DNA of 64,000 nt from Tridacna crocea (Eukaryota > Mollusca > Bivalvia > Cardiida > Cardiidae), in contig OX031066.1 in the NCBI GenBank assembly GCA_943736015.1, positions 9,304,245 to 9,368,244 on the forward strand, read 5' to 3'. Position numbers and translations under genes: made by a program. The notes beneath the pieces were generated by a model. It did not search any database and was not told the origin of the DNA. It saw nothing but the letters and a program-made list of their open reading frames with translations. Positions 3,297 through 32,186 of this stretch are shown piece by piece. Position 1 is the stretch's first letter; each line of letters begins with the position of its first letter.

Positions 3297-3460
3297 AGTT
3301 TAGTTTAAACATATTTTATTGCCAAGTTAGGTCACAAAAATAAGATTTACAATACAGAAAAATATACAAAATCAAGCGAATATGCAAACGGGTCTGACCA
3401 CAAGTTCTCGCAACTGAGATTCGGTCATTCCATCGGGTACTCACTAAAGTCATAATTCAA
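3297..3460 (-). repeat. Minus-strand LINE 3'-end-like fragment
   Basis: Read on the minus strand this ends AATAAAATATGTTTAAACTA, close to the 3' end of the LINE at 32676-32703. Its inner part (GAATCTCAGTTGCGAGAACT on the minus strand) has a second copy on the plus strand near 33165-33270. It is probably a 5'-truncated LINE or SINE tail inside the transporter intron. Confidence 0.45.
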
Positions 3461-4876: not shown

Positions 4877-4880
4877 TTAA

Positions 4881-5094
4881 CTCATTACCAATATTTTAGA
4901 CTTGTCCAAATCGAAAGCATTTGCAGACGACTAAATAAAAGTGACAGAAAATTTGAAGTTTGTTTTGTGAAGGGTAGAAAACATTGTGGGAAAAGGAGAA
5001 AATGCTGGTTACCAGCATTTTCTCCTTTTCCCACAATGTTTTCAAAATGTTTCTTTTCCAGGACAGTCAAAAGTAGGGATTGTGTGGTAATGGG
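4881..5094. mobile_element. TTAA hairpin MITE, family A
   Basis: Reference copy. It is flanked by TTAA on both sides (4877-4880 and 5095-5098), with ends CTCATTACC and GGTAATGGG. The interior has AATATTTTAGACTTGTCCAA, AAAGCATTTGCAGACGAC, then a perfect hairpin at 4981-5039 (ATTGTGGGAAAAGGAGAAAA arm, centre CTGGTTACCAG). There is no coding capacity. Ends starting CCC or similar next to TTAA suggest piggyBac-type mobilisation. Confidence 0.88.
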
Positions 5095-7375: not shown

Positions 7376-7955
7376 CACACTGATCAACGTGAGCCGTGGA
7401 CACCATGTGTTCTCGGTACACCAGATCGAATTTTCCATGGAAGAACCGGAGGTGGTGTAAGTGTTTTCATTTTTATGGACCTGATTTACAGCAATGTCAA
7501 GACGAATGATTGATCTGTTTACACACATACTAGGGAATAATAATACCGTCATACAAGCGAGCTGTGGCTTTATAAGCAATTGGGGTCTTACTTTTTTGAA
7601 GTTTGTTGCCGATTTTCGGACAAAATCCCCTTACTATTGTTCATTTTACAAGTTTGTATGATACGATAAATGTATCCCCTAAAGGAACACAAAATTTCAC
7701 TTATAAATGTCCATCCAAAGCGAAGATATACGTTTTTGAATGGACCTGGGTAGAGGAAAACATGCTAACAAGACACCATTTTCATTTTCAGAGTATGTAC
7801 ATGGACACCAGATCAGGAAAAGCTTGTGGTAACTGGACACCAACCTTTAAATCATCAATATTTCTGCCTGAAACTCGATGCATGGGCTGTATACGAAGAC
7901 TATTTATGTAAACATTATGTCACTACGGTCCATTACCTGATAAAGAGCATGTTAA
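7376..7955 (+). repeat. Left arm (part 1) of a large inverted repeat
   Basis: This segment plus 13568-14083 matches, in reverse complement and at roughly 90 percent by eye, the uninterrupted block 14806-15938. The transposon copy 1 lies exactly between the two parts. Short open frames occur in both arms, and a splice-like segment (a TTTCATTTTCAG acceptor near 7790) is present, but I cannot identify a protein. Confidence 0.85.
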
Positions 7956-8353
7956 GGTGTTCGAGGCCTAACTCTCTGCGAAATCATCGTCTAATATCGT
8001 GTAATATCGACGTACTCGGACGAGCTGTCGGTTAATCTCGGTCTCTACCGTAGTTTTCGTATTTTTTCTGGATGAACTCTGCATACCGGTGATTTTTTTC
8101 AGACAATATTCTAGAAATTTTTAGAAAACGAAATTTATTTTTTTACCAAAAAAACTGATTTGATTTTAGTTGTTTGTAAGTCACGTGACGTGGGTTTTCC
8201 CCACTTGACGTATTTATATTTGGTTCCAAAATGGCAGACCTTATCGACAAAATTAGGGACTACCGTTGTCGTTGCCGAAAAACTAAATCATAGCGGGCCA
8301 AAAGGTCAGTTATTATAGATCATAACTATGCACTTGGATTTATCTGCAAATGA

Positions 8354-8650
8354 ATGAGTTGCACGAGGGAGATTTGTCCGGTGGAGGGCAAATTAAATGA
8401 AAAAGAACATCGCCCGAAAGGTCGACGGATAGTGGAATTTTCAGTTTTATTAGAAGCGCTTCAAAACTGTGAAAAATGCCGACTTGGACCTGTTCCACTT
8501 ACCTTGTATACTATCAAAGGTGAAACGAAGGAAAGACTTGGTGGCTATTTGAAAGTTCAGAGCCAAAATCCAGATTTTTGCCATGTAAACACAGCACCTT
8601 ATGGAAAAACGTACCGTGCTAGGAAGACTGGGGCACACAGCTTGGTACAG
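8354..8650 (+). pseudogene. Transposase N-terminal exon (Mutator-like/Kolobok-like), copy 1
   Basis: The 99 codons from ATG to a consensus donor CAG/GTAAGA contain GRRIVEFSVLLEALQNCEKC and, later, the L-G-G-Y-L-K-V-Q-S stretch and a KTY(R) end. I know the G-R-R-I-V-x-x-x-V-L-x-x-x-L followed by C-x-x-C and L-x-V-x-C order as the start of Mutator-like transposase-domain proteins common in invertebrate genomes. One expected Cys pair is partly replaced here. The exon does not join in frame to the next recognised piece, so the gene is incomplete or an exon is lost. Confidence 0.6.
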
Positions 8651-8682
8651 GTAAGAAATATACACGTGTGACTGTGACTCTG

Positions 8683-8882
8683 CTCAAATCCCTACTTTTG
8701 ATGCCCCTGTGAAAGAAGCCTCTTGAAAACACTGTGGGAAAAGGAGAAAATGCTGGTAACTCCTGTTTCCAGTGTTTTCTACCCTTCCCAGAACAAATTT
8801 CAATTTCTCAGTCACCTTTATTTTGTTGTCTGCAAATGCTTTCAATTTGAACAAGTCTAAAATTTTGTTGTGTGGTAAAAAG
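8683..8882 (-). mobile_element. Family-A MITE inside transposon copy 1, degraded
   Basis: It has ATCCCTACTTTTGATGCCCC at one end, TTGTGTGGTAAAAAGTTAA at the other, and a damaged central hairpin. Its bases 8694-8701 (ACTTTTGA) are the site where the 2.7 kb element has inserted in transposon copy 2. Confidence 0.75.
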
Positions 8883-9077
8883 TTAATTGGACAATGCCCC
8901 CCGTAATATCCTCCATATACCGGTATGTTTTCCACAAAAAAAATGCACAATCCAAGGACAGAAATCTGTACAAGCCTACTTAGTCTAGTGACTCTGTAAT
9001 GCTATATCTTTTTTTTTCCTAAGTATTTTCTGTGTATAGAACAAAAGTGTAATAATTATGAAGATGTTTATAAAACA

Positions 9078-9340
9078 ATTGCCAGATGACAAAATTTTGG
9101 ACTTGTCCAAAATGTAAGAAAATGTAGACAAATATAAAGAAGAAAATAATTAAAAATGAAAACAAAAAGTTCTCTGTAGGATAGAAAAAATTGTAGAAAA
9201 AGAAGAACTACATGTATCTTGATTATGATACTACTAGCATTTCTTATTTTCCCCATATATTTTAATTGATAATATCTCAAGCTCATGTAAATCAATGATT
9301 GAAGGCTTGTGTCAGTGAGAAAATGTATCATGTTTGTGAA
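9078..9340. repeat. Degraded family-A MITE in transposon copy 1
   Basis: It keeps GACAAAATTTTGGACTTGTC and a GATAGAAAAAATTGTAGAAA remnant of the hairpin arm, but the palindrome is no longer matched. It is an old insertion carried by the transposon. Confidence 0.5.
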
Positions 9341-9403
9341 ATGAAATGAATTCTTTTCAGCACTTTTACAAGTTTTTCTGATTTTTTTTTCTCCTTTATG
9401 CAG

Positions 9404-9490
9404 AGCAATAGAAGAGTCTTGTGCTGCTGAATGGAAATGTAAAGAAGACATGGAGTTAAACTCTGTACCAGTAATTGAAAAAAGTAAGAG
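9404..9490 (+). pseudogene. Transposase internal exon fragment, copy 1
   Basis: Bounded by TTTATGCAG and GAG/GTAGGT. One frame reads AIEESCAAEWKCKEDMEL, comparable to the A-I-E-x-x-A-x-E-S-C region of Mutator-like transposases just before their acidic spacer. It is out of phase with the exon at 8354, so an intermediate exon is missing or unrecognised. Confidence 0.45.
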
Positions 9491-9790
9491 GTAGGTTTGA
9501 ATCTACACATATTACTGTGTATTTGTTACTTTGGTAAATGAGACAGTATTTATAATATTAACCAATATTTAAATTTTGGTGTGAGGACATTTGCCATGAT
9601 TCATACTCAAAGTATCATTTCAAAACATAATTCTAAGTAGAATGCTGCTTGTTTTGTGCATTGCATCACAGTCATTGTGACACTCAGATCATAACTGCAT
9701 GAAAAACAAAGCAATGTGCTTGTAAAGAATAAAAAATTATTCTATTTCAGGAGTTTTAATGGAAACACAACTTATATACAAACTGGAGTC

Positions 9791-9907
9791 GTTTATCGGA
9801 AAAAGAGAAATTTGCTTATTACAAGCAATTTCTCCTTTTCCCATAGCCTTTTTAAAAGACTTGTACTGCAGACACGTAAAACCACAGCTTTGTTTGGTAA
9901 AGGGCTA
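9791..9907. repeat. Truncated family-A MITE with variant hairpin
   Basis: The hairpin arms read GGAAAAAGAGAAATTTGCTT and AAGCAATTTCTCCTTTTCC around ATTAC. The usual GCTGGTTACCAGC centre is changed on both sides. The right end is TTGGTAAAGGG followed by CTAA instead of TTAA. Confidence 0.65.
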
Positions 9908-10064
9908 AATTTGTCTCTTGTCCGATTTTTCAATCATGTTTTGTGCTATCTATATTTCAGAAAAGAAAGTGCTGGTTTGATTGTTGCTTGCCAAAAGGTT
10001 TCAAGGGCTAGGAGAAGCTGTTGACCAAGTTTCCTCACAAAGAGCGCTATGGAATGTCATGAGC

Positions 10065-10108
10065 TGTAGATACTGCCTGGCAGAAAAGGGGATTTGATAG
10101 TCTAACAT
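10065..10108 (+). pseudogene. Transposase catalytic-domain fragment, copy 1
   Basis: One frame reads VDTAWQKRGFDSLT just before a GTATGT donor. D-x-x-W-Q-K-R-G-x-x-S-L-T is a strongly conserved stretch of Mutator-like/Kolobok-like transposases, and the Asp is thought to be the first catalytic acid. Stops TAG and TGA lie just upstream in the same frame between 9961 and 10065, so either a further splice exists or the gene is dead. Confidence 0.6.
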
Positions 10109-10323
10109 GTATGTTTTCCCATATGTTTGTTCGTAATCTTTTCATGATATTTCTTGTTTCATTTTTACAATCTCTAGACTTTTTATCATACAATATTTTG
10201 TAAGTTTAAATGAAAGAGCATGTTTATGAAAATGTGAGCTGGAATGTGTGGCATTTACGGTGGATCTGCTGTGATGTTTGTAGCACCCTACTACCAAATT
10301 AAAAATTATGAAATTTCATCTAA

Positions 10324-10668
10324 CCCTTTACCAAATGACAAAATTTTAGACTGGTTCAAATTGAAAGCACTAGCAGACAACAAAATAAACATAACTCAAA
10401 AATTTAAATTTGTTTCCAGAAGGGTAGAAAACATTGTGGAAAAAGGAGAAAATGCTGGTTACCAGCATTTTCTCCTTAACCCACAATGATTTCAAAGCAG
10501 ACAACAAAATAAACATAACTCAAAAATTTAAATTTATTTCCAGAAGGGTAGAAAACATTGTGGAAAAAGGAGAAAATGCTGGTTACCAGCATTTTCTCCA
10601 TATCCCACAATGATTTCAAAAGGCTTCCATCATAGGGTTATAAAAAACAGGGATTGATTGGTAAAGGG
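10324..10668. mobile_element. Family-A MITE with its hairpin segment duplicated
   Basis: The ends are CCCTTTACCAAATGACAAAA and TTGGTAAAGGG with TTAA at the right (CTAA at the left). A unit of about 123 bases containing the hairpin (about 10372-10494) is tandemly repeated (about 10495-10617), so the element has two hairpins. Both transposon copies share this. Confidence 0.8.
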
Positions 10669-10760
10669 TTAAGCATGCAGCATTTCATGAAATTTTTTAG
10701 ACTTGTCTAACAGGATAGAATTTTTCTATGAAAAATTTACTTAGTATCAATATGAATTAA

Positions 10761-10983
10761 CCCATTTCCAGACGACAAAATTTTAGACTGGTCCAAATTG
10801 AGGCAAATTGCAGACAACATTAAAGTGCATCTAAAATGAAAAATATGTGCCATATAGCGTAGAAAACATTGTGAGAAAAGGAGAAATTGCTTGTTACAAG
10901 CAATTCCTCCTTTTCTCACAATGTATTCCACAGCTATATATCTTTCTTTAGTGTGTCAAAATGTGGCATTATGTGGTAATGGG
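10761..10983. mobile_element. Family-A MITE with rewritten hairpin arms
   Basis: TTAA flanks at 10757-10760 and 10984-10987. The hairpin reads GTGAGAAAAGGAGAAATTGC on the left and GCAATTCCTCCTTTTCTCAC on the right around TTGTTACAA. Several changes from the common form occur on both arms so that pairing is almost fully kept. Confidence 0.8.
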
Positions 10984-11046
10984 TTAATCTCTTTGAAAAA
11001 GAAATAAATGAAAAAATAAACTCATGATATTTTATCTATTTTACAG

Positions 11047-11323
11047 CTCACACATTTTTAATGAGCAAAGCCAAATATGGAAAAAAAGTTATGAAGGCGA
11101 TAAAGAAACATCGAATCCGTGGAACATGTAAATGGTGGCAAACTCAGGGTTAAATCTTGAACATCTAGAGAAGATTTATTCCAGGGAAGGGAAAGATGGA
11201 CTTCTGAATATATTTACTGTGAAAAACACTGAAAGCCAGCCACATGTTACAAACACAAAGAGAACTCTAGAAAGTGTTATTCCAAAACTTGCTGACTATT
11301 TGAGAAGTATTAATGGAAAATGA
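11047..11323 (+). pseudogene. Terminal coding block of transposon copy 1, frameshifted
   Basis: After a TTTTACAG acceptor one frame reads HTFLMSKAKYGKKVMKAIKK and on to a stop near 11148. The +1 frame from ATG at 11132 continues as 63 codons with GLNLEHLEKIYSREGKDGLL, then V-T-N-T-K, ending at TGA. The pattern G-L-x-x-x-x-L-x-x-x-x-x-x-G-x-x-G-L … V-T-N resembles C-terminal segments I recall from invertebrate transposon-encoded proteins, but I cannot name the domain. The two halves overlap in different frames. Confidence 0.4.
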
Positions 11324-11398
11324 AATCCTTCAAATTATTTTTTGTGGTGGTGCTCTTCAGAAACAAGGCAATGAAACATTTAGATTACAACTCTTTAA

Positions 11399-11612
11399 CA
11401 CATAATCCGGACTTTTAATGACCCTGAAAAAGAAACCTTTTGAAAACATTGTGAGTAAAGAATAAAAAGACTGGTAACCTGCATTTTATCCTTTTCCCAT
11501 AATATTTTCTACCCATCCCAAAAGGAATTTTAGTTTCTAAGTTATACTTATTTTGTCATCTGCAAATGCTCTCAATTTGGACCAGTCTTAAAAATTGTCA
11601 TTTGGTAAACGG
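11399..11612 (-). mobile_element. Family-A MITE, degraded hairpin
   Basis: TTAA flanks at 11395-11398 and 11613-11616. The centre GACTGGTAACCTGCATTTTA no longer pairs well. The right-hand TTAA is also the left flank of the next MITE. Confidence 0.7.
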
Positions 11613-12094
11613 TTAACCCATTACCGAACAACAATATTTTAGACTGGTCCAAATTGAAAGCATTTGCAAATGACAAAATAAAAGTGACTGAAATTTAAAA
11701 TTTGTTTTGTGAAGGGTAGAAAACATTGTGGGAAAAGGAGAAAATGCTGGTTACCAGCATTCTCATTTTCTCAAGATGTTTTCTAAAGGCTTCTTTCTCA
11801 GGGGTTTCAAAATTAGGGATTGTGTGGTAATGGGTTAATTGAACTGCTTTGGTAAACGGTTAACCCATTACCGAACAACAATATTTTAGACTGGTCCAAA
11901 TTGAAAGCATTTGCAAATGACAAAATAAAAGTGACTGAAATTTAAAATTTGTTTTGTGAAGGGTAGAAAACATTCTGGGAAAAGGAGAAAATGCTGGTTA
12001 CCTGCATTTTCTCATTTTCCCAAGATGTTTTCTAAAGGCTTCTTTCTCAGGGGTGTCAAAATTAGGGATTGTGTGGTAATGGGTTAATTGAACT
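11603..12094. repeat. Tandem duplication of a complete family-A MITE (about 246 bp unit)
   Basis: The units are about 11603-11848 and 11849-12094. They contain MITEs 11617-11832 and 11862-12083, each with TTAA on both sides. They differ at few positions (for example CATTGTGGG against CATTCTGGG). The duplicated unit extends past the TTAA into TTGGTAAACGG on one side and ATTGAACTGCT on the other, so it arose by duplication and not by two insertions. Confidence 0.8.
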
Positions 12095-12379
12095 GCTTCT
12101 AAACATAATGCAATGTACATGTATATAAATGACCCGTCATCTGTAAAGTAACCTTCTTTGAAGTGCAAAAAGTGTTGACCCTGGTCAGAATGTTCAAAGT
12201 GCATTGTTTGCAAATAGCATGGCAAAGTTTAGTAATGATATGTGTGGTTTACTTGGTATTTTTACTTGGAACATTTTTTCACTATCAAAAAGAAAAATAA
12301 TTGAAAAAAAAAAGTATAAAGCCAAGAATATGTAATTGCATTTTTGCTTTTTTACTTAGAACTTTTATCCACCTTTCAA

Positions 12380-13020
12380 ATTTGACATTGTTGGCATTGA
12401 CCTTGTCACCAGAAGAGTAATGGTGAGCTATGCCTTCTTACAAAATTGTAAGCTTGTAACTTGAATACTTGTTTTTTTCCACAGATTTCTGGCAAATGTT
12501 ACAATTTGATATATTTGTGAAAATGCGACCTTGATATTTGACCTTGACCTTGTCAGAAGACCTTAAAACAGGTTATCAAAAGAAAATATGTGAGGTACAT
12601 ATTCCTTTCAAATATTGACTTTGAAACCGGATATTTTTAAGAAATTCCTGGCAAATGTTTAGATTTTTGTTGATTCTTTGATAATTTGACCTTGATATTT
12701 GACCTTGACCTTACCAGATGATGATAACTTTTTAAACTTTGTTATCAGCTGAAACATTTTGATGAGATTCACCTTCATACCAAATATGAGGTTTGCAATT
12801 GTAATCCTTCAAAAATTACGGGGAAATATTTATAGTTTTGATCATATTTTTCTAAAATTTGATCTTGATATTTGACCTTGACTTAGTCTAATGACATCAA
12901 CTTTGTTATCAGCTGAAGCATAATAGTAAGATGTACCATCATACCAGATATGAACTTTGTACCTTATATACATTAGAAATTACAGGCAATTCTTCAGTTT
13001 TATGTTAATTTTCTGAGAGA
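12380..13020 (+). repeat. Degenerate tandem array, TTTGACCTTGACC-containing units
   Basis: About four diverged units of roughly 150-170 bases, each with GATATTTGACCTTGACC, then a TTATCA segment, then CAAATAT or ACTTTG, then a stretch like ATTCCTGGCAAATGTTTAGA. It occupies the non-coding right part of the transposon and is repeated at 28935-29560 in copy 2. Confidence 0.65.
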
Positions 13021-13567
13021 AAGACCGAATGCACCGTACCATATCTAGGTCAGATTTTCTCTGAAACCGTGTGGTAAAGTTCCTTAAAATTTCTTTCCAG
13101 TATTCATTAATGGTGTCTTGAATTTTTGGAGAAATTCTAATGAATTCAAGTTTTATTTGAATTTTTTAGGATTTTTTGAAATTTAGTGTGAACTGGTCAA
13201 ACGTACTTGAAAATTGTCTAGTTGAAGGACCTATATGTGACTTTTGTCAGAATACTTTCTACCTTTGGACAAAAAAAATCCATTTTTGATTAAAATTTGA
13301 TGAAGTGATATTTATTTGCTTGTTTGATACCATTTTTGTTCATAAATTTTGAAAAACCTGATAAATATGTTAAGTTTTATAGAGGTAGTAGTCTATTATT
13401 TTTATCAGTTTTGATGTTCACGGGTTATGAGATAAAATTCCTCATAATTCAACTTACACGTGGTATTTTTTTTTAAAATTTCAACATAAAGTGTCTTTAC
13501 CAGTTACAATTGTAGTGAGACTTAATTTATGATGATTTCGAAAAATGAGAGTTAGGCCCCGTATACC

Positions 13568-14083
13568 TTAAACGCAATTTCATTACTTGTACCACTTGCT
13601 TTTTTGAAATATTTGCAATAACACGGCAATTTACGAAGTAGACCTACAATGCTTGATCACAATTGAGCGGTAATTGCCTCCAATGTTGGTGCAAGACATG
13701 TTCTTTTTTTACAGCGTTTCAGTTTTATGAATGGCGTATTAACCCATTACTACGCAATCACGAGCTTTAATGTCCCTGGGAAAGATGGCTTCGAAAAACA
13801 TTGTCTATAAAGAAAAAACCCTATTAACTTCATTTGGCCTGATTCTTAGTTTAAATAATTTTCAAATCCGCTTGGCCAACTGCCAGCGGGCTCTTAGAAT
13901 GGCGTTCTACCGTTCGTACATTTGCATGTGTGGGTTTGTTCGTCTACGCGTTTATTTCTAAAATTTTTATTTAATTGACTTCTCTTTAGAAAGCACCAAG
14001 TGGAAATCAACAAAATTCAACGTGGATGATTCCATAATTTCTTTCAAGATACTTCGATCCTTTAAAAAAGATGACCTATGTGG
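13568..14083 (+). repeat. Left arm (part 2) of the large inverted repeat
   Basis: It continues the arm beginning at 7376 and pairs with 14806-15340. It includes a fragment of a family-A MITE (TTAACCCATTACTACGCAAT at 13742). About 720 bases of non-matching spacer (14084-14805) separate it from the right arm. Confidence 0.85.
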
Positions 14084-19440: not shown

Positions 19441-20219
19441 CTTTTGTTTGCTTCCGTATCTGTTATGTGATTTTGTTATTAGCGCCAGTAATGTTGTATT
19501 ATTGTATATCCCTATGTCTATATCCCTATGTCTATTCTTATGTAGCCTCTCCATTTCTTTTCCTGTTATTCAAGCATATATTATTTTCTATTCTTATTGT
19601 TGCAAGAGATAGAGTATTATTTCGTTATCGGTGTCAGAAATATTGTATTACTGCAATGCCTATGTCTGATCGAGAATATCCATTTATTTTCCTGTCATTC
19701 ATGTATTTATCTACTATTCTTTATTACTTGTCCTTAAATTGAAAGAATATACTTATATTGCATGTTATCATTTCTGACGAAGTTTCCATGTCTAATACAT
19801 GTATTGCTGTGGAATCTTAATATTCCAATGAAAACTAAACAGGAAAATGTAGCCTTAAAGAATAATGGTGATGAGCTGTTATGATGTCTTACGTGCAGCA
19901 GTTCATTTGATGGTAAGAAATCTAGTTTGTCAATGATGATGATATAAATTAAGTCTAATAATCGTTTCTCTCTTTTTATATGAATATGTAGATACTATAC
20001 GTAATTAATTCACTTATTTCTTACGGATAAACTTCGACCACTCCCACTTAATGACTATAAATCCATGTTTTGTATAGTTAACCAGTTTTTCAACTATTAT
20101 TTTAATTTTTGTTTTGTTTTTCTTCTATCATTGTTCTTAATTCCTTTTCTAAAAGGTCTGGAGGGTGTAATGATTTTGATTAGTTCAATTTGCCGTAAAA
20201 TTGTGCCGTATCACAAACT
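19441..20219. other. Intergenic stretch between transporter and LINE
   Basis: AT-rich; it may include the 3' untranslated region of the transporter and the 5' part of the LINE. I could not find a LINE 5' boundary, a first LINE frame, or a target duplication here. Confidence 0.4.
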
Positions 20220-21778
20220 ATGTGGATGTGGACATGTGTTGTGCTGCTACCTGTTATTCCTGTACCTTCTAAGCGCCATTACATGAGGAACCGTAAAGTT
20301 TTTATTGATTTGTGTAGCCAGCCGACTCACCGTCCTCATCTTCAATTCCACTTGACCATAACACTATTCTTTATTCTACCAATTCTAAGTTTTGTTGCTC
20401 ATTCATATTCAGCTCTAGTGAACATAAAAGATTGTGCATATTTGACCAAGTGTATACAAAGCCACAATAAAAGAAGGCTACTAGTGGGTACTCGCTGGGA
20501 AAAGAATATTAAATTTTGTAGAAATATGTTATATTCAACTGTTTTCACCTCGTTACTTTTGTCAGTAGTCGTTCTTCTTATGATACTGCTAGCGGGTGAT
20601 GTTCATCCAAATCCAGGCCCACAAACTAGCGAGTCATCAAGTAGTTTGTATAGTACGGATTTGTATAACTTTCTGAACCTTCCAAATCACCTCTCAACTG
20701 TCCATTATAATGTTCAAAGTATAGCTAATAAGCTAGATACATTGATTGCGGAGTTTTCATTCTTTGACATTGTGTCTTTCTCCGAGACTTGGTTGCACAA
20801 TGAATACCCATCAAATGAATTAATCTTCCCATCTTTCCATCCACCCGAGCGAAAAGACAGAGTTAGAGACAGATATGGAGGTGTTATTTTGTATGTCAAA
20901 AATAACCTGTCTTATATTCGAAGAAATGATCTTGAACCTATCGGACTAGAATGTATTTGGGTTCAAATACAGTCTAGCAACAATAGGAATATTTTGTTCG
21001 GTGTATTCTATAGACCACCGAACTCTGACTCTAATTATTATTCACTTATCGAAGAATCCATTGGTCTTGCAATGGACTGCAATATCTCTGATGTCATTAT
21101 AACAGGAGATTTCAACTTGAATGTTATGAAACAAAACGAGTTCCGTAAAATTGAGTCCCTATGCAATGAATACAACATGATTCAATGTATTGATGAACCC
21201 ACCCATTTCACAGAAAATTCTATATCGACCATTGATCTTTTTTTCGTTACTAATAAAGAATCAGTCCTTACAACTGGCGTTGGAGAGCCCTGTCTCGGTC
21301 TTACAACGCGTTATCACTGTCCCGTTTTTGGCGTTTTCAATTTCCTCAAACCCAAAATTAAAAATATCAATCGAATTATTTGGAAGTATGATCTAGGAAA
21401 TTACAATGAATTAAGAAATAGTTTCGCTAATTTTGATTGGGATTCAATACATGACAATAACATTAACATTTATGCGGAAAACCTAGCGGATACCATTTCT
21501 GAAAAAGCACTTAAGTTTATTCCTAACAAGAAAATTTGTGTTAACCCGCAAGAGCCGACCTGGATGAATTGTACTATTAAAAAGGAAATCCGTCGTCGTA
21601 AAAGGTTATATAGAAAAGCTAAGAAATCAAATAATGTCAGTCACTGGACAAAATTTAAGTCTGTTAGGAATAAAGTGATTTCATTGATTCGACAGAGAAA
21701 AGAAAGTTATTATGAACGGTTGTCTATAAAGTTGAAATCTGGTAATCTATCTTCGCGCGATTGGTGGAAAACTCTTAA
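20220..21778 (+). CDS. LINE polyprotein, endonuclease half (interrupted)
   Basis: ATG at 20220 (others at 20226 and 20283). Two hydrophobic stretches lead into GDVHPNPGP at about residues 126-134, a 2A-like motif often seen at this position in CR1-type LINEs. The endonuclease follows, with HYNVQSIANKLD, SFSETWL, YGGVILYVKNNL, FGVFYRPPNSD, ITGDFNLN, STIDLFFVTN and a His in R-Y-H-C-P-V, the expected motif order. The half ends at WWKTLK; in the present DNA the frame then runs a few codons into the transposon and stops at 21792-21794. The joined frame with 30125-32186 is 1207 codons including the stop. Confidence 0.85.
20596..20622 (+). other. 2A-like NPGP motif in the LINE frame
   Basis: The residues read L-L-A-G-D-V-H-P-N-P-G-P after a long hydrophobic run. 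The general 2A rule is D-x-E-x-N-P-G-P; here His replaces Glu, so ribosome skipping may be weak or absent. The hydrophobic run may also act as a signal sequence. Confidence 0.7.
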
Positions 21779-22176
21779 GGTGTTCGAGGCCTAACTCTCT
21801 GCGAAATCATCGTCTAATATCGTGTAATATCGACGTACTCGGACGAGCTGTCGGTTAATCTCGGTCTCTACCGTAGTTTTCGTATTTTTTCTGGATGAAC
21901 TCTGCATACCGGTGATTTTTTTCAGACAATATTCTAGAAATTTTTAGAAAACGAAATTTATTTTTTTACCAAAAAAACTGATTTGATTTTAGTTGTTTGT
22001 AAGTCACGTGACGTGGGTTTTCCCCACTTGACGTATTTATATTTGGTTCCAAAATGGCTGACCTTATCGACAAAATTAGGGACTACCGTTGTCGTTGCCG
22101 AAAAACTAAATCATAGCGGGCCAAAAGGTCAGTTATTATAGATCATAACTATGCACTTGGATTTATCTGCAAATGA

Positions 22177-22473
22177 ATGAGTTGCACGAGGGAGATTTGT
22201 CCGGTGGAGGGCAAATTAAATGAAAAAGAACATCGCCCGAAAGGTCGACGGATAGTGGAATTTTCAGTTTTATTAGAAGCGCTTCAAAACTGTGAAAAAT
22301 GCCGACTTGGACCTGTTCCACTTACCTTGTATACTATCAAAGGTGAAACGAAGGAAGGACTTGGTGGCTATTTGAAAGTTCAGAGCCAAAATCCAGATTT
22401 TTGCCATGTAAACACAGCACCTTATGGAAAAACGTACCGTGCTAGGAAGACTGGGGCACACAGCTTGGTACAG
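22177..22473 (+). pseudogene. Transposase N-terminal exon, copy 2
   Basis: Same as 8354-8650 apart from one visible amino-acid change (Arg to Gly in ETKE-R/G-LGGY). It keeps the ATG and the GTAAGA donor. Confidence 0.6.
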
Positions 22474-22524
22474 GTAAGAAATATACACGTGTGACTGTGA
22501 CTCTGCTCAAATCCCTACTTTTGA

Positions 22525-23020
22525 GGGTCCTACTAAAACACGCCGTACCAGAAAAATACGCCGTACCATACGCCGTACGGATTAAAACACGCCGTACCAA
22601 AATGTGAATTATATTGAATGCTTTTTTTGGTATTTTTATATTGAAAAACATATAATCTAACCCAAGCAGCGATATTACTGCCCAATTTTTCACATTTGTC
22701 AAGTTATTGGTAATTATAGACATTCTTGTAGGGGACCAACAGGTGCCCGTTACGCCGTACCAATTACATGAGGGTCGTACGAATTTTGAGGCACAAAACA
22801 ACCGAATTAATAAGAATGTATGGTACAATATGCAATTATCTACTTATTTACGAGTTCATGTTGTTCTATTTCATGTCTTACAGTGGTTGCAGGTACATGT
22901 CAAGCATCAAGCAGATATTTACAGAAGGGAAATAACTCTGTGGTACTGATGAAGTTTATACAGAGAACTCTACTACGTTTCATTACTTTAATGAAACCTT
23001 GTGAAAAAATAAGAAATTGC
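22525..23020 (+). repeat. Left long terminal inverted repeat of the nested element
   Basis: It pairs with about 24760-25245 at roughly 85-90 percent by eye. It starts with four ACGCCGTACC-type repeats within 80 bases and another near 22753. Confidence 0.8.
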
Positions 23021-23184
23021 TGGTCTTGAAAAACAAGGTTATTGAAAAAATTTAGGGAAAAGAATTTTATGAATTTGTAATATTAAAACTCAGTTATATT
23101 TTTTCATTCATTAATTAATCCATTTTTACATTACTAGTTCTGGTGTTTTACAGTCAGTATCGTTGCCCACTGCGAATAAATTAA

Positions 23185-23372
23185 CACTTTCCCAAACAAC
23201 AAATTTTAGACTCTTCCAAACTGAACTAGTTTGCAGACGACAATTTAAAACTTGGTGAAAATGGTGGGAAGTTCTCCAAAAGGTTAGAACACAAGAGCAA
23301 TTTCTTGTCTTCACAGTATTTTCAAAAAGATTTATACTGCAGACACTTAAAAAAAGGGTTGTCTGGGAAAGG
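23185..23372. repeat. Diverged family-A MITE inside the nested element
   Basis: TTAA at 23181-23184, CACTTTCCCAAACAACAAAT start, GTCTGGGAAAGG end. The central hairpin is largely lost. Confidence 0.6.
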
Positions 23373-23402
23373 TTTAGATGACCAAAATAGATAAGACCAA
23401 AA

Positions 23403-23683
23403 GGAATTGAATACTGCTCTGAAGGCACTACATTACAAGCCTACGAACACATAAAAGAAGGCTTGAGGACAATGAATCGCCAGTACATTCACTTCACCGC
23501 TTCCAAGACCCTACTGAAGAAGGCTCGCAAGTCATCATCACACTTAATGTGAAGAAATATCTCCAAGAAGGGATTAAGCTGTTCCGCTTGGCAGATCGAA
23601 ACATTGCTGCATGTGGAAACAGATCGGGTATAATAAAGCCATGTTTCCTTAAATGTGTGACTGTAAGAAAATGGCCCTTCTAA
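23403..23683 (+). pseudogene. KptA/Tpt1-like RNA 2'-phosphotransferase fragment, frameshifted
   Basis: Frame 1 (23403-23552) reads EGTTLQAYEHIKEGLRTMNR and then QYIHFTA before a TGA. A second frame continues with VIITLNVKKYLQEGIKLFRL, ADRNIAACGNRSGIIKP and CFLKCVTV to a stop at 23681. Together they follow the order of the PTS_2-RNA family: (H)-G-T…W/Y-x-x-I-x-x-x-G-L-x-x-M-x-R-x-x-I-H-x-(A), then V-x-I-x-(I/L)-(D/N)…G-I-x-(F)-x-(R)-(S/A)-(N/D)-x-x-I…G-N…G-x-(L/I)-x-P-x-x-F. That enzyme removes the 2'-phosphate at tRNA splice junctions using NAD+. Here the HGT His is Glu and the second His of H-I-H-F is preceded by Tyr, the frame is broken and both termini are missing, so it is a dead captured piece. 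The match is from memory of the family, not from a search. Confidence 0.5.
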
Positions 23684-24300
23684 GGGCCAACCAACAATGA
23701 CCCTTCCAAACACCAACGGCCCTTGCTGAGGCCACCAATTTCACAGAAATCTATCTTTGCGAAAAAATGTCTTTAAAACGGCCCTTCTCAGTGCCAACAC
23801 ATTGAAGTAAACAGGAAAAGACATTACCCTCATCATCCCCTTCCTCAATAAATAAAAATGATGCGAAAATGGGTTCTTTCTCAGGTATTTCCTGGGGCCA
23901 GAAAATTCAGGGCCCTTGCCTAGTACTGGTAGAAACAGGAAGTACATGAATATGTGAGCTTCTGCAGTGAAATAATGTACTTAAAGTGGCGTAAATCACC
24001 ATAAAATCAATCAATCAACATTTGCCAGTCAAATTTCTTTACATTGTTTATTGGTAAAAAAAATCACAACAGAAAAAGAACACGTGTTTGTGAAACACTA
24101 ATGCCCCCGTTTATGCAGACGGACAGGCGGACAAGGGTAAAGCTATATGGCCCCTATCTTCCGATGCCGGGACATAAAAAATAGAATAGATCTATCTCAA
24201 TATTAATTTACAGTTTATTGATTGCAAGAGTTGTGATGACAATTTTCGGAAGATATCATTCAAATAGGCACATGTAAAGGTTGAGAAAGTGTTACTTAGG
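23684..24300. other. Interior of the nested element, no gene recognised
   Basis: It holds several related segments (GGCCCTTCTAAGGGCCAAC, GGCCCTTGCTGAGGCCACC, GGCCCTTCTCAGTGCCAAC) that look like a degenerate repeat, then AT-rich sequence. Confidence 0.45.
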
Positions 24301-24316
24301 GCACACAAATTGGATG

Positions 24317-24465
24317 TATCTAAGTTCACCTTTTCTTATTTTTCCATACCGTGTTTTCTACCCTTTTGGAGAACTCTCCGCCATTTTCATCAACTTTAAA
24401 ATTTTCGTCTGCAATCTGTTTCAGTTTGGATGGGTCTAAAATTTGACGTGTGGATAAAAGTAAAT
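24317..24465 (-). repeat. Family-A MITE remnant inside the nested element
   Basis: On the minus strand it reads a GGTAGAAAACACGGTATGG arm and GTCTGCAAATGC-type sequence of family A, without a matched second arm. Confidence 0.5.
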
Positions 24466-24567
24466 TTTTTTCACAGTGTGCAACGATACAGTATGGAAAA
24501 AACCAGCACTAAATGGAAAAATTGATTAAAGAATGAAAAAATACAGTCCACGTTCTACAATCATTAA

Positions 24568-24735
24568 CTTTTTACCAAACGACAAAATTGTAGACTGTTC
24601 TAAATTTGCAGACGACACAATTGAAATTTGTTCTTGGAGGGTAGAAAACATTATATGAAAAGGAGAAAATACTGGTTACTAGTGTTTTGTCCTTTTCCCA
24701 AGATATTTTCAAAAGCCTTATTTTTCCGGATCAGA
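24568..24735. repeat. Family-A MITE inside the nested element, imperfect hairpin
   Basis: TTAA 24564-24567, then CTTTTTACCAAACGACAAAA, GTAGAAAACATTATATGAAA and a hairpin around ATACTGGTTACTAGTGTTTT. The right end is unclear. Confidence 0.6.
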
Positions 24736-24759
24736 AAAGAAGAGAAACGGTTATAAGCA

Positions 24760-25245
24760 ATTTTTCGTTCTTCCACAAGGTTTCGTTGAACTGATGTTAA
24801 ACGTTAAGTTCTCTGTATAAACTTCAGAGTTATTTCCCTTCTGTAAACATCTGCTGGATAAATGCTTGACATGTAGTTGCAACCTCTGTAAAACATGAAA
24901 TAGAACAACATGAACTCGTAAATAAGTACATAATTGCACATTGTGCCATACATTCTTATTAATTTGGTTGTTTTGTGCCTCAAAATTCGTACGGCGCTCA
25001 TGTAATTGGTACGGCGTAACGGGCACCTGTTGGTCTCGTGCAGAAATGTCTAAAATTGGCAAATAACTTGACAAATATGAAAAATTGGCAAGTAATATCG
25101 CTACTTAGGTTAGATTATATGTTTTTCAATATAAAAATACCAAAAAAAGCATTCAATATAATTCACATTTTGGTACGGCGTGTTTTAATCCGTACGGCGT
25201 ATGGTACGGCGTATTTTTCTGGTACGGCGTGTTTTAGTATGACCG
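24760..25245 (-). repeat. Right long terminal inverted repeat of the nested element
   Basis: Reverse complement of 22525-23020 with small indels. It ends in a cluster of GGTACGGCGT repeats and AGTATGACC at the outer end. Confidence 0.8.
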
Positions 25246-25253
25246 ACTTTTGA

Positions 25254-25436
25254 TGCCCCTGTGAAAGAAGCCTCTTGAAAACACTGTGGGAAAAGGAGAA
25301 AATGCTGGTAACTCCTGTTTCCAGTGTTTTCTACCCTTCCCAGAACAAATTTCAATTTCTCAGTCACCTTTATTTTGTTGTCTGCAAATGCTTTCAATTT
25401 GAACAAGTCTAAAATTTTGTTGTGTGGTAAAAAGTT
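25254..25436 (-). repeat. Remainder of the family-A MITE split by the nested element
   Basis: Corresponds to 8702-8882 of copy 1. The nested element inserted into the end of this MITE, so the order of events is MITE into transposon, transposon duplicated, then the nested element into copy 2. Confidence 0.75.
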
Positions 25437-25956
25437 AATTGGACAATGCCCCCCGTAATATCCTCCATATACCGGTATGTTTTCCACAAAAAAAATGCAC
25501 AATCCAAGGACAGAAATCTGTACAAGCCTACTTAGTCTAGTGACTCTGTAATGCTATATCTTTTTTTTTTCCTAAGTATTTTCTGTGTATAGAACAAAAG
25601 TGTAATAATTATGAAGATGTTTATAAAACAATTGCCAGATGACAAAATTTTGGACTTGTCCAAAATGTAAGAAAATGTAGACAAATATAAAGAAGAAAAT
25701 AATTAAAAATGAAAACAAAAAGTTCTCTGTAGGATAGAAAAAATTGTAGAAAAAGAAGAACTACATGTATCTTGATTATGATACTACTAGCATTTCTTAT
25801 TTTCCCCATATATTTTAATTGATAATATCTCAAGCTCATGTAAATCAATGATTGAAGGCTTGTGTCAGTGAGAAAATGTATCATGTTTGTGAAATGAAAT
25901 GAATTCTTTTCAGCACTTTTACAAGTTTTTCTGATTTTTTTTTCTCCTTTATGCAG

Positions 25957-26043
25957 AGCAATAGAAGAGTCTTGTGCTGCTGAATGGAAATGTAAAGAAG
26001 ACATGGAGTTAAACTCTGTACCAGTAATTGAAAAAAGTAAGAG
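25957..26043 (+). pseudogene. Transposase internal exon fragment, copy 2
   Basis: Identical to 9404-9490 (AIEESCAAEWKCKEDMEL between ATGCAG and GAG/GTAGGT). Confidence 0.45.
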
Positions 26044-26627
26044 GTAGGTTTGAATCTACACATATTACTGTGTATTTGTTACTTTGGTAAATGAGACAGT
26101 ATTTATAATATTAACCAATATTTAAATTTTGGTGTGAGGACATTTGCCATGATTCATACTCAAAGTATCATTTCAAAACATAATTCTAAGTAGAATGCTG
26201 CTTGTTTTGTGCATTGCATCACAGTCATTGTGACACTCAGATCATAACTGCATGAAAAACAAAGCAATGTGCTTGTAAAGAATAAAAAATTATTCTATTT
26301 CAGGAGTTTTAATGGAAACACAACTTATATACAAACTGGAGTCGTTTATCGGAAAAAGAGAAATTTGCTTATTACAAGCAATTTCTCCTTTTCCCATAGC
26401 CTTTTTAAAAGACTTGTACTGCAGACACGTAAAACCACAGCTTTGTTTGGTAAAGGGCTAAATTTGTCTCTTGTCCGATTTTTCAATCATGTTTTGTGCT
26501 ATCTATATTTCAGAAAAGAAAGTGCTGGTTTGATTGTTGCTTGCCAAAAGGTTTCAAGGGCTAGGAGAAGCTGTTGACCAAGTTTCCTCACAAAGAGCGC
26601 TATGGAATGTCATGAGCTGTAGATACT

Positions 26628-26672
26628 GCCTGGCAGAAAAGGGGATTTGATAGTCTAACATGTATGTTTTCC
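26628..26672 (+). pseudogene. Transposase catalytic-domain fragment, copy 2
   Basis: Same VDTAWQKRGFDSLT stretch and GTATGT donor as copy 1, with the same upstream stops. The shared defects show the gene was already broken before the last transposition. Confidence 0.6.
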
Positions 26673-26876
26673 CATATGTTTGTTCGTAATCTTTTCATGA
26701 TATTTCTTGTTTCATTTTTACAATCTCTAGACTTTTTATCATACAATATTTTGTAAGTTTAAATGAAAGAGCATGTTTATGAAAATGTGAGCTGGAATGT
26801 GTGGCATTTACGGTGGATCTGCTGTGATGTTTGTAGCACCCTACTACCAAATTAAAAATTATGAAATTTCATCTAA

Positions 26877-28640
26877 CCCTTTACCAAATGACAAAATTTT
26901 AGACTGGTTCAAATTGAAAGCACTAGCAGACAACAAAATAAACATAACTCAAAAATTTAAATTTGTTTCCAGAAGGGTAGAAAACATTGTGGAAAAAGGA
27001 GAAAATGCTGGTTACCAGCATTTTCTCCTTAACCCACAATGATTTCAAAGCAGACAACAAAATAAACATAACTCAAAAATTTAAATTTATTTCCAGAAGG
27101 GTAGAAAACATTGTGGAAAAAGGAGAAAATGCTGGTTACCAGCATTTTCTCCATATCCCACAATGATTTCAAAAGGCTTCCATCATAGGGTTATAAAAAA
27201 CAGGGATTGATTGGTAAAGGGTTAAGCATGCAGCATTTCATGAAATTTTTTAGACTTGTCTAACAGGATAGAATTTTTCTATGAAAAATTTACTTAGTAT
27301 CAATATGAATTAACCCATTTCCAGACGACAAAATTTTAGACTGGTCCAAATTGAGGCAAATTGCAGACAACATTAAAGTGCATCTAAAATGAAAAATATG
27401 TGCCATATAGCGTAGAAAACATTGTGAGAAAAGGAGAAATTGCTTGTTACAAGCAATTCCTCCTTTTCTCACAATGTATTCCACAGCTATATATCTTTCT
27501 TTAGTGTGTCAAAATGTGGCATTATGTGGTAATGGGTTAATCTCTTTGAAAAAGAAATAAATGAAAAAATAAACTCATGATATTTTATCTATTTTACAGC
27601 TCACACATTTTTAATGAGCAAAGCCAAATATGGAAAAAAAGTTATGAAGGCGATAAAGAAACATCGAATCCGTGGAACATGTAAATGGTGGCAAACTCAG
27701 GGTTAAATCTTGAACATCTAGAGAAGATTTATTCCAGGGAAGGGAAAGATGGACTTCTGAATATATTTACTGTGAAAAACACTGAAAGCCAGCCACATGT
27801 TACAAACACAAAGAGAACTCTAGAAAGTGTTATTCCAAAACTTGCTGACTATTTGAGAAGTATTAATGGAAAATGAAATCCTTCAAATTATTTTTTGTGG
27901 TGGTGCTCTTCAGAAACAAGGCAATGAAACATTTAGATTACAACTCTTTAACACATAATCCGGACTTTTAATGACCCTGAAAAAGAAACCTTTTGAAAAC
28001 ATTGTGAGTAAAGAATAAAAAGACTGGTAACCTGCATTTTATCCTTTTCCCATAATATTTTCTACCCATCCCAAAAGGAATTTTAGTTTCTAAGTTATAC
28101 TTATTTTGTCATCTGCAAATGCTCTCAATTTGGACCAGTCTTAAAAATTGTCATTTGGTAAACGGTTAACCCATTACCGAACAACAATATTTTAGACTGG
28201 TCCAAATTGAAAGCATTTGCAAATGACAAAATAAAAGTGACTGAAATTTAAAATTTGTTTTGTGAAGGGTAGAAAACATTGTGGGAAAAGGAGAAAATGC
28301 TGGTTACCAGCATTCTCATTTTCTCAAGATGTTTTCTAAAGGCTTCTTTCTCAGGGGTTTCAAAATTAGGGATTGTGTGGTAATGGGTTAATTGAACTGC
28401 TTTGGTAAACAGTTAACCCATTACCGAACAACAATATTTTAGACTGGTCCAAATTGAAAGCATTTGCAAATGACAAAATAAAAGTGACTGAAATTTAAAA
28501 TTTGTTTTGTGAAGGGTAGAAAACATTCTGGGAAAAGGAGAAAATGCTGGTTACCTGCATTTTCTCATTTTCCCAAGATGTTTTCTAAAGGCTTCTTTCT
28601 CAGGGGTGTCAAAATTAGGAATTGTGTGGTAATGGGTTAA
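26877..28640. repeat. Family-A MITE cluster of transposon copy 2 (five elements)
   Basis: Counterparts of 10324-12083 in copy 1: the double-hairpin MITE (26877-27221), the variant-hairpin MITE (about 27314-27536), the degraded one (about 27952-28165), and the tandem pair (about 28170-28385 and 28415-28636). One difference, AACGGTTAA against AACAGTTAA, lies between the tandem units. Confidence 0.8.
27600..27876 (+). pseudogene. Terminal coding block of transposon copy 2, frameshifted
   Basis: Identical in protein terms to 11047-11323, including the overlap of two frames and the 63-codon end from ATG at 27685. Confidence 0.4.
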
Positions 28641-28934
28641 TTGAACTGCTTCTAAACATAATGCAATGTACATGTATATAAATGACCCGTCATCTGTAAA
28701 GTAACCTTCTTTGAAGTGCAAAAAGTGTTGACCCTGGTCAGAATGTTCAAAGTGCATTGTTTGCAAATAGCATGGCAAAGTTTAGTAATGATATGTGTGG
28801 TTTACTTGGTATTTTTACTTGGAACATTTTTTCACTATCAAAAAGAAAAATAATTGAAAAAAAAAAGTATAAAGCCAAGAATATGTAATTGCATTTTTGC
28901 TTTTTTACTTAGAACTTTTATCCACCTTTCAAAT

Positions 28935-29560
28935 TTGACATTGTTGGCATTGACCTTGTCACCAGAAGAGTAATGGTGAGCTATGCCTTCTTACAAAATT
29001 GTAAGCTTGTAACTTGAATACTTGTTTTTTTCCACAGATTTCTGGCAAATGTTACAATTTGATATATTTGTGAAAATGCGACCTTGATATTTGACCTTGA
29101 CCTTGTCAGAAGACCTTAAAACAGGTTATCAAAAGAAAATATGTGAGGTACATATTCCTTTCAAATATTGACTTTGAAACCGGATATTTTTAAGAAATTC
29201 CTGGCAAATGTTTAGATTTTTGTTGATTCTTTGATAATTTGACCTTGATATTTGACCTTGACCTTACCAGATGATGATAACTTTTTAAACTTTGTTATCA
29301 GCTGAAACATTTTGATGAGATTCACCTTCATACCAAATATGAGGTTTGCAATTGTAATCCTTCAAAAATTACGGGGAAATATTTATAGTTTTGATCATTT
29401 TTTTCTAAAATTTGATCTTGATATTTGACCTTGACTTAGTCTAATGACATCAACTTTGTTATCAGCTGAAGCATAATAGTAAGATGTACCATCATACCAG
29501 ATATGAACTTTGTACCTTATATACATTAGAAATTACAGGCAATTCTTCAGTTTTATGTTA
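28935..29560 (+). repeat. Degenerate TTTGACCTTGACC tandem array, copy 2
   Basis: Counterpart of 12380-13020, with no visible unit-number change between the two transposon copies. Confidence 0.65.
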
Positions 29561-30124
29561 ATTTTCTGAGAGAAAGACCGAATGCACCGTACCATATCTA
29601 GGTCAGATTTTCTCTGAAACCGTGTGGTAAAGTTCCTTAAAATTTCTTTCCAGTATTCATTAATGGTGTCTTGAATTTTTGGAGAAATTCTAATGAATTC
29701 AAGTTTTATTTGAATTTTTTAGGATTTTTTGAAATTTAGTGTGAACTGGTCAAACGTACTTGAAAATTGTCTAGTTGAAGGACCTATATGTGACTTTTGT
29801 CAGAATACTTTCTACCTTTGGACAAAAAAAATCCATTTTTGATTAAAATTTGATGAAGTGATATTTATTTGCTTGTTTGATACCATTTTTGTTCATAAAT
29901 TTTGAAAAACCTGATAAATATGTTAAGTTTTATAGAGGTAGTAGTCTATTATTTTTATCAGTTTTGATGTTCACGGGTTATGAGATAAAATTCCTCATAA
30001 TTCAACTTACACGTGGTATTTTTTTTTAAAATTTCAACATAAAGTGTCTTTACCAGTTACAATTGTAGTGAGACTTAATTTATGATGATTTCGAAAAATG
30101 AGAGTTAGGCCCCGTATACCTTAA

Positions 30125-32186
30125 GTCTCTGATATCTCCACATACCGCAATATCTATTCCTCCCATGTTTGATGTTTCCACTGATTCGTTGATTGTTGAT
30201 GACCACGAGATAGCAAACATACTGAACACTTATTTCGCAAATCAGTCATGTATTGATGATTCTTTTAGTAACATACCTGATGAACGTTTTCATTTTATAC
30301 ACAATACTTTAGATACAATCAATATCATGCCATCTGAGGTACTGGATGTTCTCAAAACACTCAAAATTGGTAAAGCATCCGGCCCTGACGGCATAAATAG
30401 TAGAATTCTTATCGAATCAGCTCATCAATTAGCACCACATTTGTCCAAACTATTCAATTTCTCATTAAATACTAGTTTTGTTCCGAAATCATGGAAAATA
30501 TCTAATGTATGCCCGATATTTAAGTCCGGTGACCCTTCACTTCCTTCTAATTACAGACCCGTTTCATTATTGAATAACATTGAAAAAGTTTTAGAACGTA
30601 TTATATTCAAGCACGTTTATAATCATCTAAAGGATAACAATTTTTTTACATCTTATCAGTCAGGTTTTATGCCTGGTGATTCTACTGTTAATCAAGTAAC
30701 TAGCTTATATAACAATATATGTAAGGCTTTGGATAATGGTTTGGAATTTAGAGTTGTGTTTTTCGATATCAGCAAAGCATTTGACAAAGTCTGGCATAAA
30801 GGGTTATTGTTTAAGCTGAGAAGAGCAGGGATCAGAGGAAAGCTGTTGGACTGGTTTTCTAATTATCTCTCTGACCGTTTCCAAAGAGTTGTTCTGCCGG
30901 GTGGTTCTTCAAATTTATGCCATGTACAAGCCGGCGTGCCTCAGGGATCTATAGTAGGACCGCTTTTATTTTTGATCTACATCAATGATATCGTCGATGA
31001 TATTCAAACGAACATTAATCTTTTTGCAGATGACACTAGTTTATCTGTGGTTGTTGGTGACCCGATTTGTGCTGGAACTATTTTACAATCTGATATAGAT
31101 AAAATTTCTCGTTGGGCACAAAAGTGGTTAGTCACGTTTAATCCATCGAAATCTGAATCTTTGGTAATAACGCGGAAACGCGTCAAACCCGTCCATCCCA
31201 GTCTTTTTATGTTAAATACTGAGATTCCGTCCGTTAATAATCATAAACACTTAGGCATACATCTAAGTAACGATGGCTCCTGGGACTTACACATTAACAA
31301 TGCTATTGAAAAGGCTTGGAAAAGAATAGGAGTCATGCGATCTTTAAAACTGCGACTTGATCGACTTTCACTTCAAATAATTTATTTCTCATTTATCAGA
31401 CCCATTCTTGAATATGGCGATGTTATATGGGATAATCTTTCTCAGGGGTTAAAAGATCAACTGGATAAAGTGCAAAACGAAGCTGCTCGGATAGTTACCG
31501 GTTGCACTAAACTTGTTGCCATCGCTGATCTTTATCGGGAGGCTGGTTGGGAAACTCTAAGTCAAAGACGGCGTAAGCACAAACTCATTCTCTTATATAA
31601 AATGGTAAATGGGCTTGCTCCAAATTATCTCAATCATCTTGTTCCGACAACGGTTGGCAATTCTTCAGCTTATAATCTTCGAAGACCGAATAATCTTAGG
31701 ACCATTGCATGTAGAACCAGTCTCTATAGCAATTCATTTTTGCCAGCTGTAATCAATGAATGGAATAATCTACCAGATGAAACAAAGGATGTGGAGTCTC
31801 TGTCATCTTTTAAATACTGCTTAAATGTAGACAAACCTGTTCCACGTAAGCTTTACTTTTTTGGAGACAGGAAAATGCAAGTCATTCATGCTAGGTTACG
31901 TAACCGATGTAGCAGTCTTAATGAGCATCTGTACTTGAAAAATTTAGTAGATTCACCTCTCTGTAGATGTGGTTATGTCGAATCGACGCACCACTACTTT
32001 TTAGAGTGTTTATTTTATCGTGACTTCAGACTTAGTTTAAGTCATAGCATATATGATATTTCAACATTTAATCTTCAAACCATTCTTTTCGGGGATGAAA
32101 ATCTTAGTATTTCTGATAATCAAAGAATATTTAGTGCGGTGCATACATATATCCGTAACAGTGGAAGATTTTCTGGCAATGTATAG
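30125..32186 (+). CDS. LINE polyprotein, reverse transcriptase half (interrupted)
   Basis: The frame continues WWKTLK as SLISPHTAISIPPMFDVSTD once the transposon is removed. RT motifs in order: G-K-A-S-G-P-D-G-I, Y-R-P-V-S-L-L-N, Q-S-G-F-M-P-G-D-S-T, FFDISKAFDKVWH, AGVPQGSIVGPLLFLIYIND and NLFADDTSL (catalytic Asp pair about residues 822-823 of the joined frame, near 31029). The C-terminal part has LRNRCSSLNEHLYLKN and a C-R-C-G…H-H-Y-F-L-E-C cluster, a possible zinc-binding end typical of CR1/Jockey elements. Stop at 32184-32186. No internal stop or frameshift. Confidence 0.88.

Follow-up and report, generated by a model that had tools for sequence, protein, structure and literature searches.

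Mutator-like elements (MULEs) are described, in the sections of the literature accessible to us, as making target duplications of 8–11 bp and often bearing long terminal inverted repeats (TIRs; PMC6446971). Several MULEs carry an extra enzyme domain, among them MuDR-6_HM of Cnidaria, with Ovarian Tumour, and the Phytophthora SET MULEs (PMC6446971), and in the Ulp1-carrying Vandal MULEs of plants, known as Kaonashi/KIU, an extra enzyme gene of host origin has been amplified and long kept (PMC13317346). Animal Pack-TIRs hold non-transposon coding sequence between TIRs, are multicopy and have distinct target duplications; in the available portions of that study no Pack-MULE is recorded for the animal reference genomes it used, and the fly Ssk-FB4 elements are treated as Pack-MULEs (PMC8277862). 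TRPT1/Tpt1/KptA enzymes are reported, in the part of the source at hand, to remove 2′-phosphates and to ADP-ribosylate 5′-phosphate ends of RNA and single-stranded DNA (PMC8883491). As far as the accessible part of PMC6333775 goes, their loss in mouse and E. coli gives no phenotype and the enzyme is kept in many animals and bacteria, which raises the question of what Tpt1/KptA does beyond tRNA splicing in fungi. In the available text of the MULE survey 'phosphotransferase' occurs 0 times and KptA was not found (PMC6446971), and in that of a bivalve transposon survey MULEs are mentioned and 'phosphotransferase' was not found (PMC10294476). At the level of titles and listings, we found no link of KptA/Tpt1 to transposons, no link of histone stem-loops to transposons, and no other transposon cargo with histone-type 3′ ends.

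Here, we describe a KptA/Tpt1 fragment from Tridacna crocea. It lies in the window, by which we mean the whole 64,000-nucleotide stretch that was analysed, and is very probably a decayed remnant of the 3′ part of a KptA/Tpt1 gene, the cargo of a MULE transposon lineage. The positions in the window are:

7952–13571, plus strand: second copy of the outer element, without the KptA element (99.7% over 750 bp, 99.9% over 4879 bp)
8694–8701, plus strand: empty target site, a single ACTTTTGA, in the second outer-element copy
21775–30124, plus strand: outer element, the target of the KptA element insertion, from comparison with the second copy
22517–22524, plus strand: left target-site duplication ACTTTTGA, 8 bp
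22525–25245, no strand assigned: non-autonomous MULE-type element with KptA fragment, ends GGGTCC...GACCG, 2.7 kb
22526–23021, plus strand: left long terminal inverted repeat, pairing with 24756–25244
23397–23605, plus strand: KptA/Tpt1 (PF01885) C-terminal fragment in two overlapping frames, from profile match and alignment to the relative L071
23673–23688, plus strand: stem GGCCCTTCTAAGGGCC where the KptA frame ends, taken to be an altered remnant of a histone-type 3′ stem-loop
24756–25244, minus strand: right long terminal inverted repeat, pairing with 22526–23021
25246–25253, plus strand: right target-site duplication ACTTTTGA, 8 bp

In the window, the KptA element is inserted whole: both of its ends are present, flanked by an 8-bp target duplication. 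Its arms of about 490 nt are 88.9% identical over 503 columns and 97% across the outer 183 nt, and the empty site is present inside the same window, in the 7952–13571 copy of the outer element. Among loci with both exact ends, where the ends were left free to shift by up to 2 nt, 26 of 27 have a target duplication of 8–11 nt and one (L028) has none. The empty site and these duplications place the fragment, which lies between the inverted ends, within the mobile unit, as a previous sequence-only reading had proposed. Both the duplications and the TIRs (about 490 nt in the window, 642 nt in the larger relative L070) agree with the description of MULEs. Within the window element we saw no frame for a transposase. 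The outer element has a fragment that weakly matches PF20700 (Mutator-like transposase) at about 22177–22473, followed by GT, with E 0.004, below the cut-off.

Some features of the surroundings were observed alongside. Read by eye, the outer-element copies at 21775–30124 and 7952–13571 have TTAA flanks and inverted ends AGGT...GGCCTAAC. Frames at 20199–21794 and 30102–32186, which we take to be of LINE type, are split by the outer element, and the upstream frame reads GDVHPNPGP, presumably a 2A-like motif. A palindromic repeat of ~250 bp is present in many copies (25245–25438, 26874–27048, 27310–27541, 28166–28391 and about twenty other places in the window); its ends resemble TTAACCC(A/T)TTACC, it is perhaps a TTAA-type MITE, and the right flank of the KptA element sits in one copy.

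The two frames at 23403–23683 keep the order of the PTS_2-RNA profile (PF01885). In Pfam the first frame matches profile positions 106–148 (E 6e-5, 23.6 bits) and the second, weakly, positions 144–169 (E 0.2, 12.2 bits). Measured against the cut-off of 26 bits, both frames of this broken copy are below it; many sister copies and the relatives L069, L070 and L071 are above. Aligned to L071 (C2:16176598), a complete KptA relative, the window is 43% identical with one stop at 23397–23564 (C11:9327641–9327808) and 77% identical at 23513–23605 (C11:9327757–9327849), in the overlapping second frame. The frame split is due to small indels relative to the sisters. From the Pfam matches and this alignment, the pair of frames noticed earlier is a real, frame-broken Tpt1/KptA fragment. 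Its only residue of the catalytic Arg-His-Arg-Arg tetrad, which was taken from the accessible part of PMC6333775 and placed on our sequences by reading alignments, is the fourth (RQYIHF), the first three being absent.

How widespread is this element, and does its reading frame remain open? The terminal motif of this first family is found at 200 exact places genome-wide (reversed control 0), or some 100 elements on the assumption that ends are mostly paired. Taken by themselves, the first 100 ends in the list form 38 adjacent convergent pairs, of which 32 enclose a KptA hit, mostly near 2.8 kb, and 6 do not. Beside the window's own, at least 39 copies of the KptA stretch are present at 94–100% identity (best 40 of 118 candidates scored), the repeat counts being lower bounds because the best candidates only were scored. 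With 99.7% identity over 2696 bp, L010 at C5:19889079 is the nearest copy of the whole element; its target duplication differs from that in the window, and this hints at movement not long ago. As a separate observation, 11.2 kb without a listed KptA hit lie between two convergent exact first-family ends at C1:52830296–52841452; they may belong to an element that is larger or is nested.

Sister copies with an open frame do exist: the KptA stretch is in one open frame of at least 96 aa in 21 of 42 distinct window-type copies, a set that leaves out the complete gene L008 and seven partial matches, and a stricter rule retains 18 distinct copies with intact frames. Selection on the truncated frame was not seen when substitutions in 36 distinct copies (27 synonymous, 59 non-synonymous, 2 stops) were compared with random placement of the same base changes (expected 25.0, 58.8 and 4.2). 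The pooled pN/pS of 0.70 carries no meaning, as other frames and stretches reach 0.61–1.21. The truncated domain in the window-type sisters drifts neutrally, and since its N-terminal lobe is missing too, along with three of the four residues that are essential, the window subfamily spreads a fossil and no enzyme. The idea that an RNA-modifying enzyme domain is being spread therefore does not apply to this subfamily, with its neutral C-terminal part; a second family, that of L069, spreads complete enzyme frames.

Genome-wide, PF01885 has 77 hits at E 0.001 or better, the window copy not being among them. A complete, intronless KptA gene is present at L008/L070 on C16, in one frame of 213 aa from stop to stop and 181 aa from Met, with a PF01885 E of 4.9e-23. 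L070 and its surroundings align with the window-type element L013 at 82–86% identity in the 3′ part of KptA, in the 3′ region and along the inverted repeats; the L070 element has 642-nt arms, 98% complementary, and an 8-bp duplication ATAACTAA. Head to head with KptA stands a 243-aa remnant of the C-terminal part of a transposase. The remnant itself has no Pfam match, and its relatives extend N-terminally, in the same open frames, into PF10551 (MULE): one at C2:66265849–66266670 is 64% identical, within a 1041-aa frame (PF10551 match at C2:66266497), and another at C7:8578278 is 35% identical to the L070 transposase ORF, within a 932-aa frame with PF10551. In six copies (two on C12, two on C9, one each on C7 and C11) the transposase remnant is joined to a KptA remnant, with 96–97% identity to L070 on the KptA side and 88–92% on the transposase side, so the transposase–KptA pair is older than L070. 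No KptA hit is listed near the 64% relative on C2, and among the elements read none was seen with both transposase and KptA intact. In the L070 KptA (4535–5077) the third tetrad Arg is replaced by Trp; L071 and the L069-type copies read keep this Arg, and in L071 the fourth tetrad residue is absent. On these sequence comparisons, the window copy is very probably an internal-deletion derivative of a larger L070-like element that lost the transposase and the KptA 5′ part. Elsewhere, at C13:5444700, a KptA relative with stops, 77% identical to L071, shares its strand with a MULE transposase remnant ~10 kb away (C13:5454924–5455867).

The L069 family also holds a complete KptA. In L069, on C9, the arms measure about 240 nt, the ends read GGGTCC...GGACCG, like those of the first family, and a 10-nt repeat CCAATGATAC is present on both sides; the exact ends of its family occur 21 times in the genome (control 0). 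Its KptA frame is complete (PF01885 E 4.8e-26), and no transposase frame was recognised in L069. Among the seven copies read (L001–L007), L001, L002, L004 and L005 have all four tetrad residues and no stops in the matched stretches; stops are present in L003, L006 and L007, and the last part of the gene is lost in L004–L007. Dispensability of KptA in cis follows from ten further copies that lack a stretch inside the gene, five of them also lacking the stem-loop described below, and that have still spread. In five of the ten the missing stretch is the same, about 228 nt (a multiple of three) at 3102–3320 of the L069-family query, with sides overlapping by 9 nt, and in the five others it is larger and includes the stem-loop. 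Estimates of dN/dS within the L069 family (0.0 to 1.66) are too few to use.

In several subfamilies, a stem-loop of the histone 3′ type stands at the end of the KptA gene. Just after the L069-type KptA, in 7 of 7 copies read, stands GGCCCUUUUCAGGGCC, followed by a purine-rich AGAAAGA which we take to resemble the histone downstream element. L069 and L002 match RF00032 at 38.8 and 39.3 bits (gathering 34), and below gathering are L077, downstream of L071, at 33.5 bits and L070, with three tandem stems, at 30.8 bits; no match at the gathering score was obtained in the window. Genome-wide there are at least 70 RF00032 hits (best 75 of 323,229 candidates scored), 56 of them in an array at C13:7.05–7.47 Mb that contains PF00125 histone genes. 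Outside the array, 11 of the 14 listed hits are on the same strand as, and directly downstream of, a KptA hit, at distances from overlapping the KptA end to about 125 nt, and no PF00125 hit is listed near these 11 (best 150 of 153 candidates). One stem-loop outside the array, at C13:14040566, is beside a histone gene, and the two remaining are at C13:3534843 and C8:48946788.

Nine of the 11 pairs are L069-family copies, and the pairs are therefore not independent. The stem-loop at C9:39243995 (35.6 bits) follows an L071-type gene of 80% identity, and that at C4:19253787 (38.8 bits) follows a KptA with 46% identity to L071; because this KptA is absent among the listed L069-family matches, it may represent another subfamily or else an L069 relative that has decayed. 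MicroRNA matches in the Rfam scan, which included L070, were set aside as they are far below gathering scores and within palindromic repeats.

Where did the KptA gene come from? The sequence-only reading had pointed to capture of a host gene by a DNA transposon and to a host TRPT1 parent. The KptA fragment and its place in a MULE-like element are borne out, and capture of a single exon from host TRPT1 is not supported. A canonical TRPT1-type exon of 59 aa is present at C3:20568651 (L074), with 7yw2 (tRNA 2′-phosphotransferase 1), which we take to be the human enzyme, as its best PDB match among 2′-phosphotransferases (E 8.7e-8); two designed repeat proteins rank above it through summed weak repeats. 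L074 was compared with the L069 KptA, a similar hit at C2:55595406 not being included, and the two are 37% identical across 27 residues only. On this strong dissimilarity, capture of the TRPT1 exon was rejected as direct source: L074, the only exon of this type that was read, has diverged too far from the L069 KptA for a parent. The KptA sequences match PDB 7kw8, 6e3a and 7yw2. The nearest complete relative read, L070, itself sits in an element.

L070, the L069-type genes and L071 are 52–69% identical to one another, a closer resemblance than that between L074 and the L069 KptA. L070 and L071 give a dN/dS of 0.18 (bootstrap 0.09–0.29, 155 codons), and between L070 and the L069-type genes synonymous sites are saturated (pS about 0.87) with pN 0.33; both comparisons indicate that the protein was kept by selection while the subfamilies diverged. 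The transposon KptA genes make up a lineage that is divergent, and comparison of its subfamilies gives signs of purifying selection. L071 was read short of element ends, and selection may therefore have acted on a host gene before capture. L077 was read for homology to the element; stem-loops are common to them, and this reading too stops short of element ends.

We propose that, long ago, a KptA gene that had no introns and ended in a histone-like way would have been taken up by a MULE, and that subfamilies would then have diverged with the gene kept by selection. Non-autonomous derivatives such as the window copy would have lost the transposase and the KptA 5′ half and subsequently moved in trans. 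The stem-loops suggest that the cargo mRNA is probably processed in a histone-like way, with no introns, no poly(A) and SLBP/U7-type cleavage, which would imply that expression is highest during DNA replication or in germ cells. Such an enzyme would act on RNA or DNA ends, by 2′-phosphate removal or by ADP-ribosylation of 5′-phosphate ends. What would the element gain? Our leading guess, a tentative one, is that nucleic-acid ends may be protected or modified during transposition or against RNA-based silencing. The complete proposal, in which a MULE KptA with a histone-like mRNA (intronless, with stem-loop and purine-rich downstream element) would time the enzyme to S phase or the germ line and so protect intermediates or blunt host RNA-based silencing, is possible, if short of probable.

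Alternatively, the genome may contain an expanded host family of intronless KptA genes with histone-type 3′ ends, members of which transposons accidentally duplicated again and again. The low copy number and open frame of L071 agree with this, as does the fact that no first-family end occurs within 3.5 kb of L071 (one motif, exact match); purifying selection between subfamilies and a stem-loop that accompanies the gene in each subfamily read would be expected as well. However, L069 and L070, which were read with wide flanks, both lie between inverted repeats and target duplications, KptA relatives are scattered on all 18 large contigs, and no transposon-free donor was recognised among the KptA hits read. 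We consider such a host family rather unlikely. An ordinary Pack-MULE that took a KptA fragment from a host gene once, leaving copies that are passive passengers, would account well for the window subfamily, which has a fragment only, no transposase and neutral drift; it does not account for the complete gene in homologous surroundings in L070 or for that in a second MULE-like family (L069), and L074, the single TRPT1-type exon read, differs too much to have been the parent, making this explanation quite improbable. A gene from an integrated virus is very improbable, because two conserved peptides, used to scan viral contigs and reaching near relatives only, found no relative there and the element has MULE-type ends, size and transposase remnant, even if some phages and a few eukaryotic viruses have KptA (PMC9503650, accessible part) and phage KptA align at about 31%.

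If the KptA gene indeed became part of a MULE lineage as proposed, the complete gene would be a natural case in which the enzyme may pay for itself, and a mobile gene with histone-type 3′ ends would give transposons a way to couple their expression to DNA replication. It would also be an animal example of MULEs with complete genes. The Pack-TIR captures described in PMC8277862 are mostly small (median 224 bp), whereas complete genes are present here in two families. Similar to Tpt1/KptA RNA 2′-phosphotransferases, as described in the accessible part of PMC6333775, the sequences have the same domain order, and four L069-type copies have the tetrad and the HGT motif; the genes here are, however, transposon-borne and diverged from TRPT1, and the window copy is the C-terminal part only. 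The stem-loop has the 6-bp stem and 4-nt loop of replication-dependent histone mRNA 3′ ends (RF00032), with AGAAAGA downstream in L069-type copies, but is found on a non-histone transposon gene. Kaonashi/KIU, to the extent described in PMC13317346, are non-TIR MULEs of plants with a SUMO protease, whereas the present elements are from an animal, have long TIRs and carry the intronless gene of an NAD-dependent RNA/DNA-end enzyme with a histone-type stem-loop. MULEs with an extra enzyme domain are thus already known, and what appears to be new here is the KptA cargo and, above all, its histone-type 3′ end.
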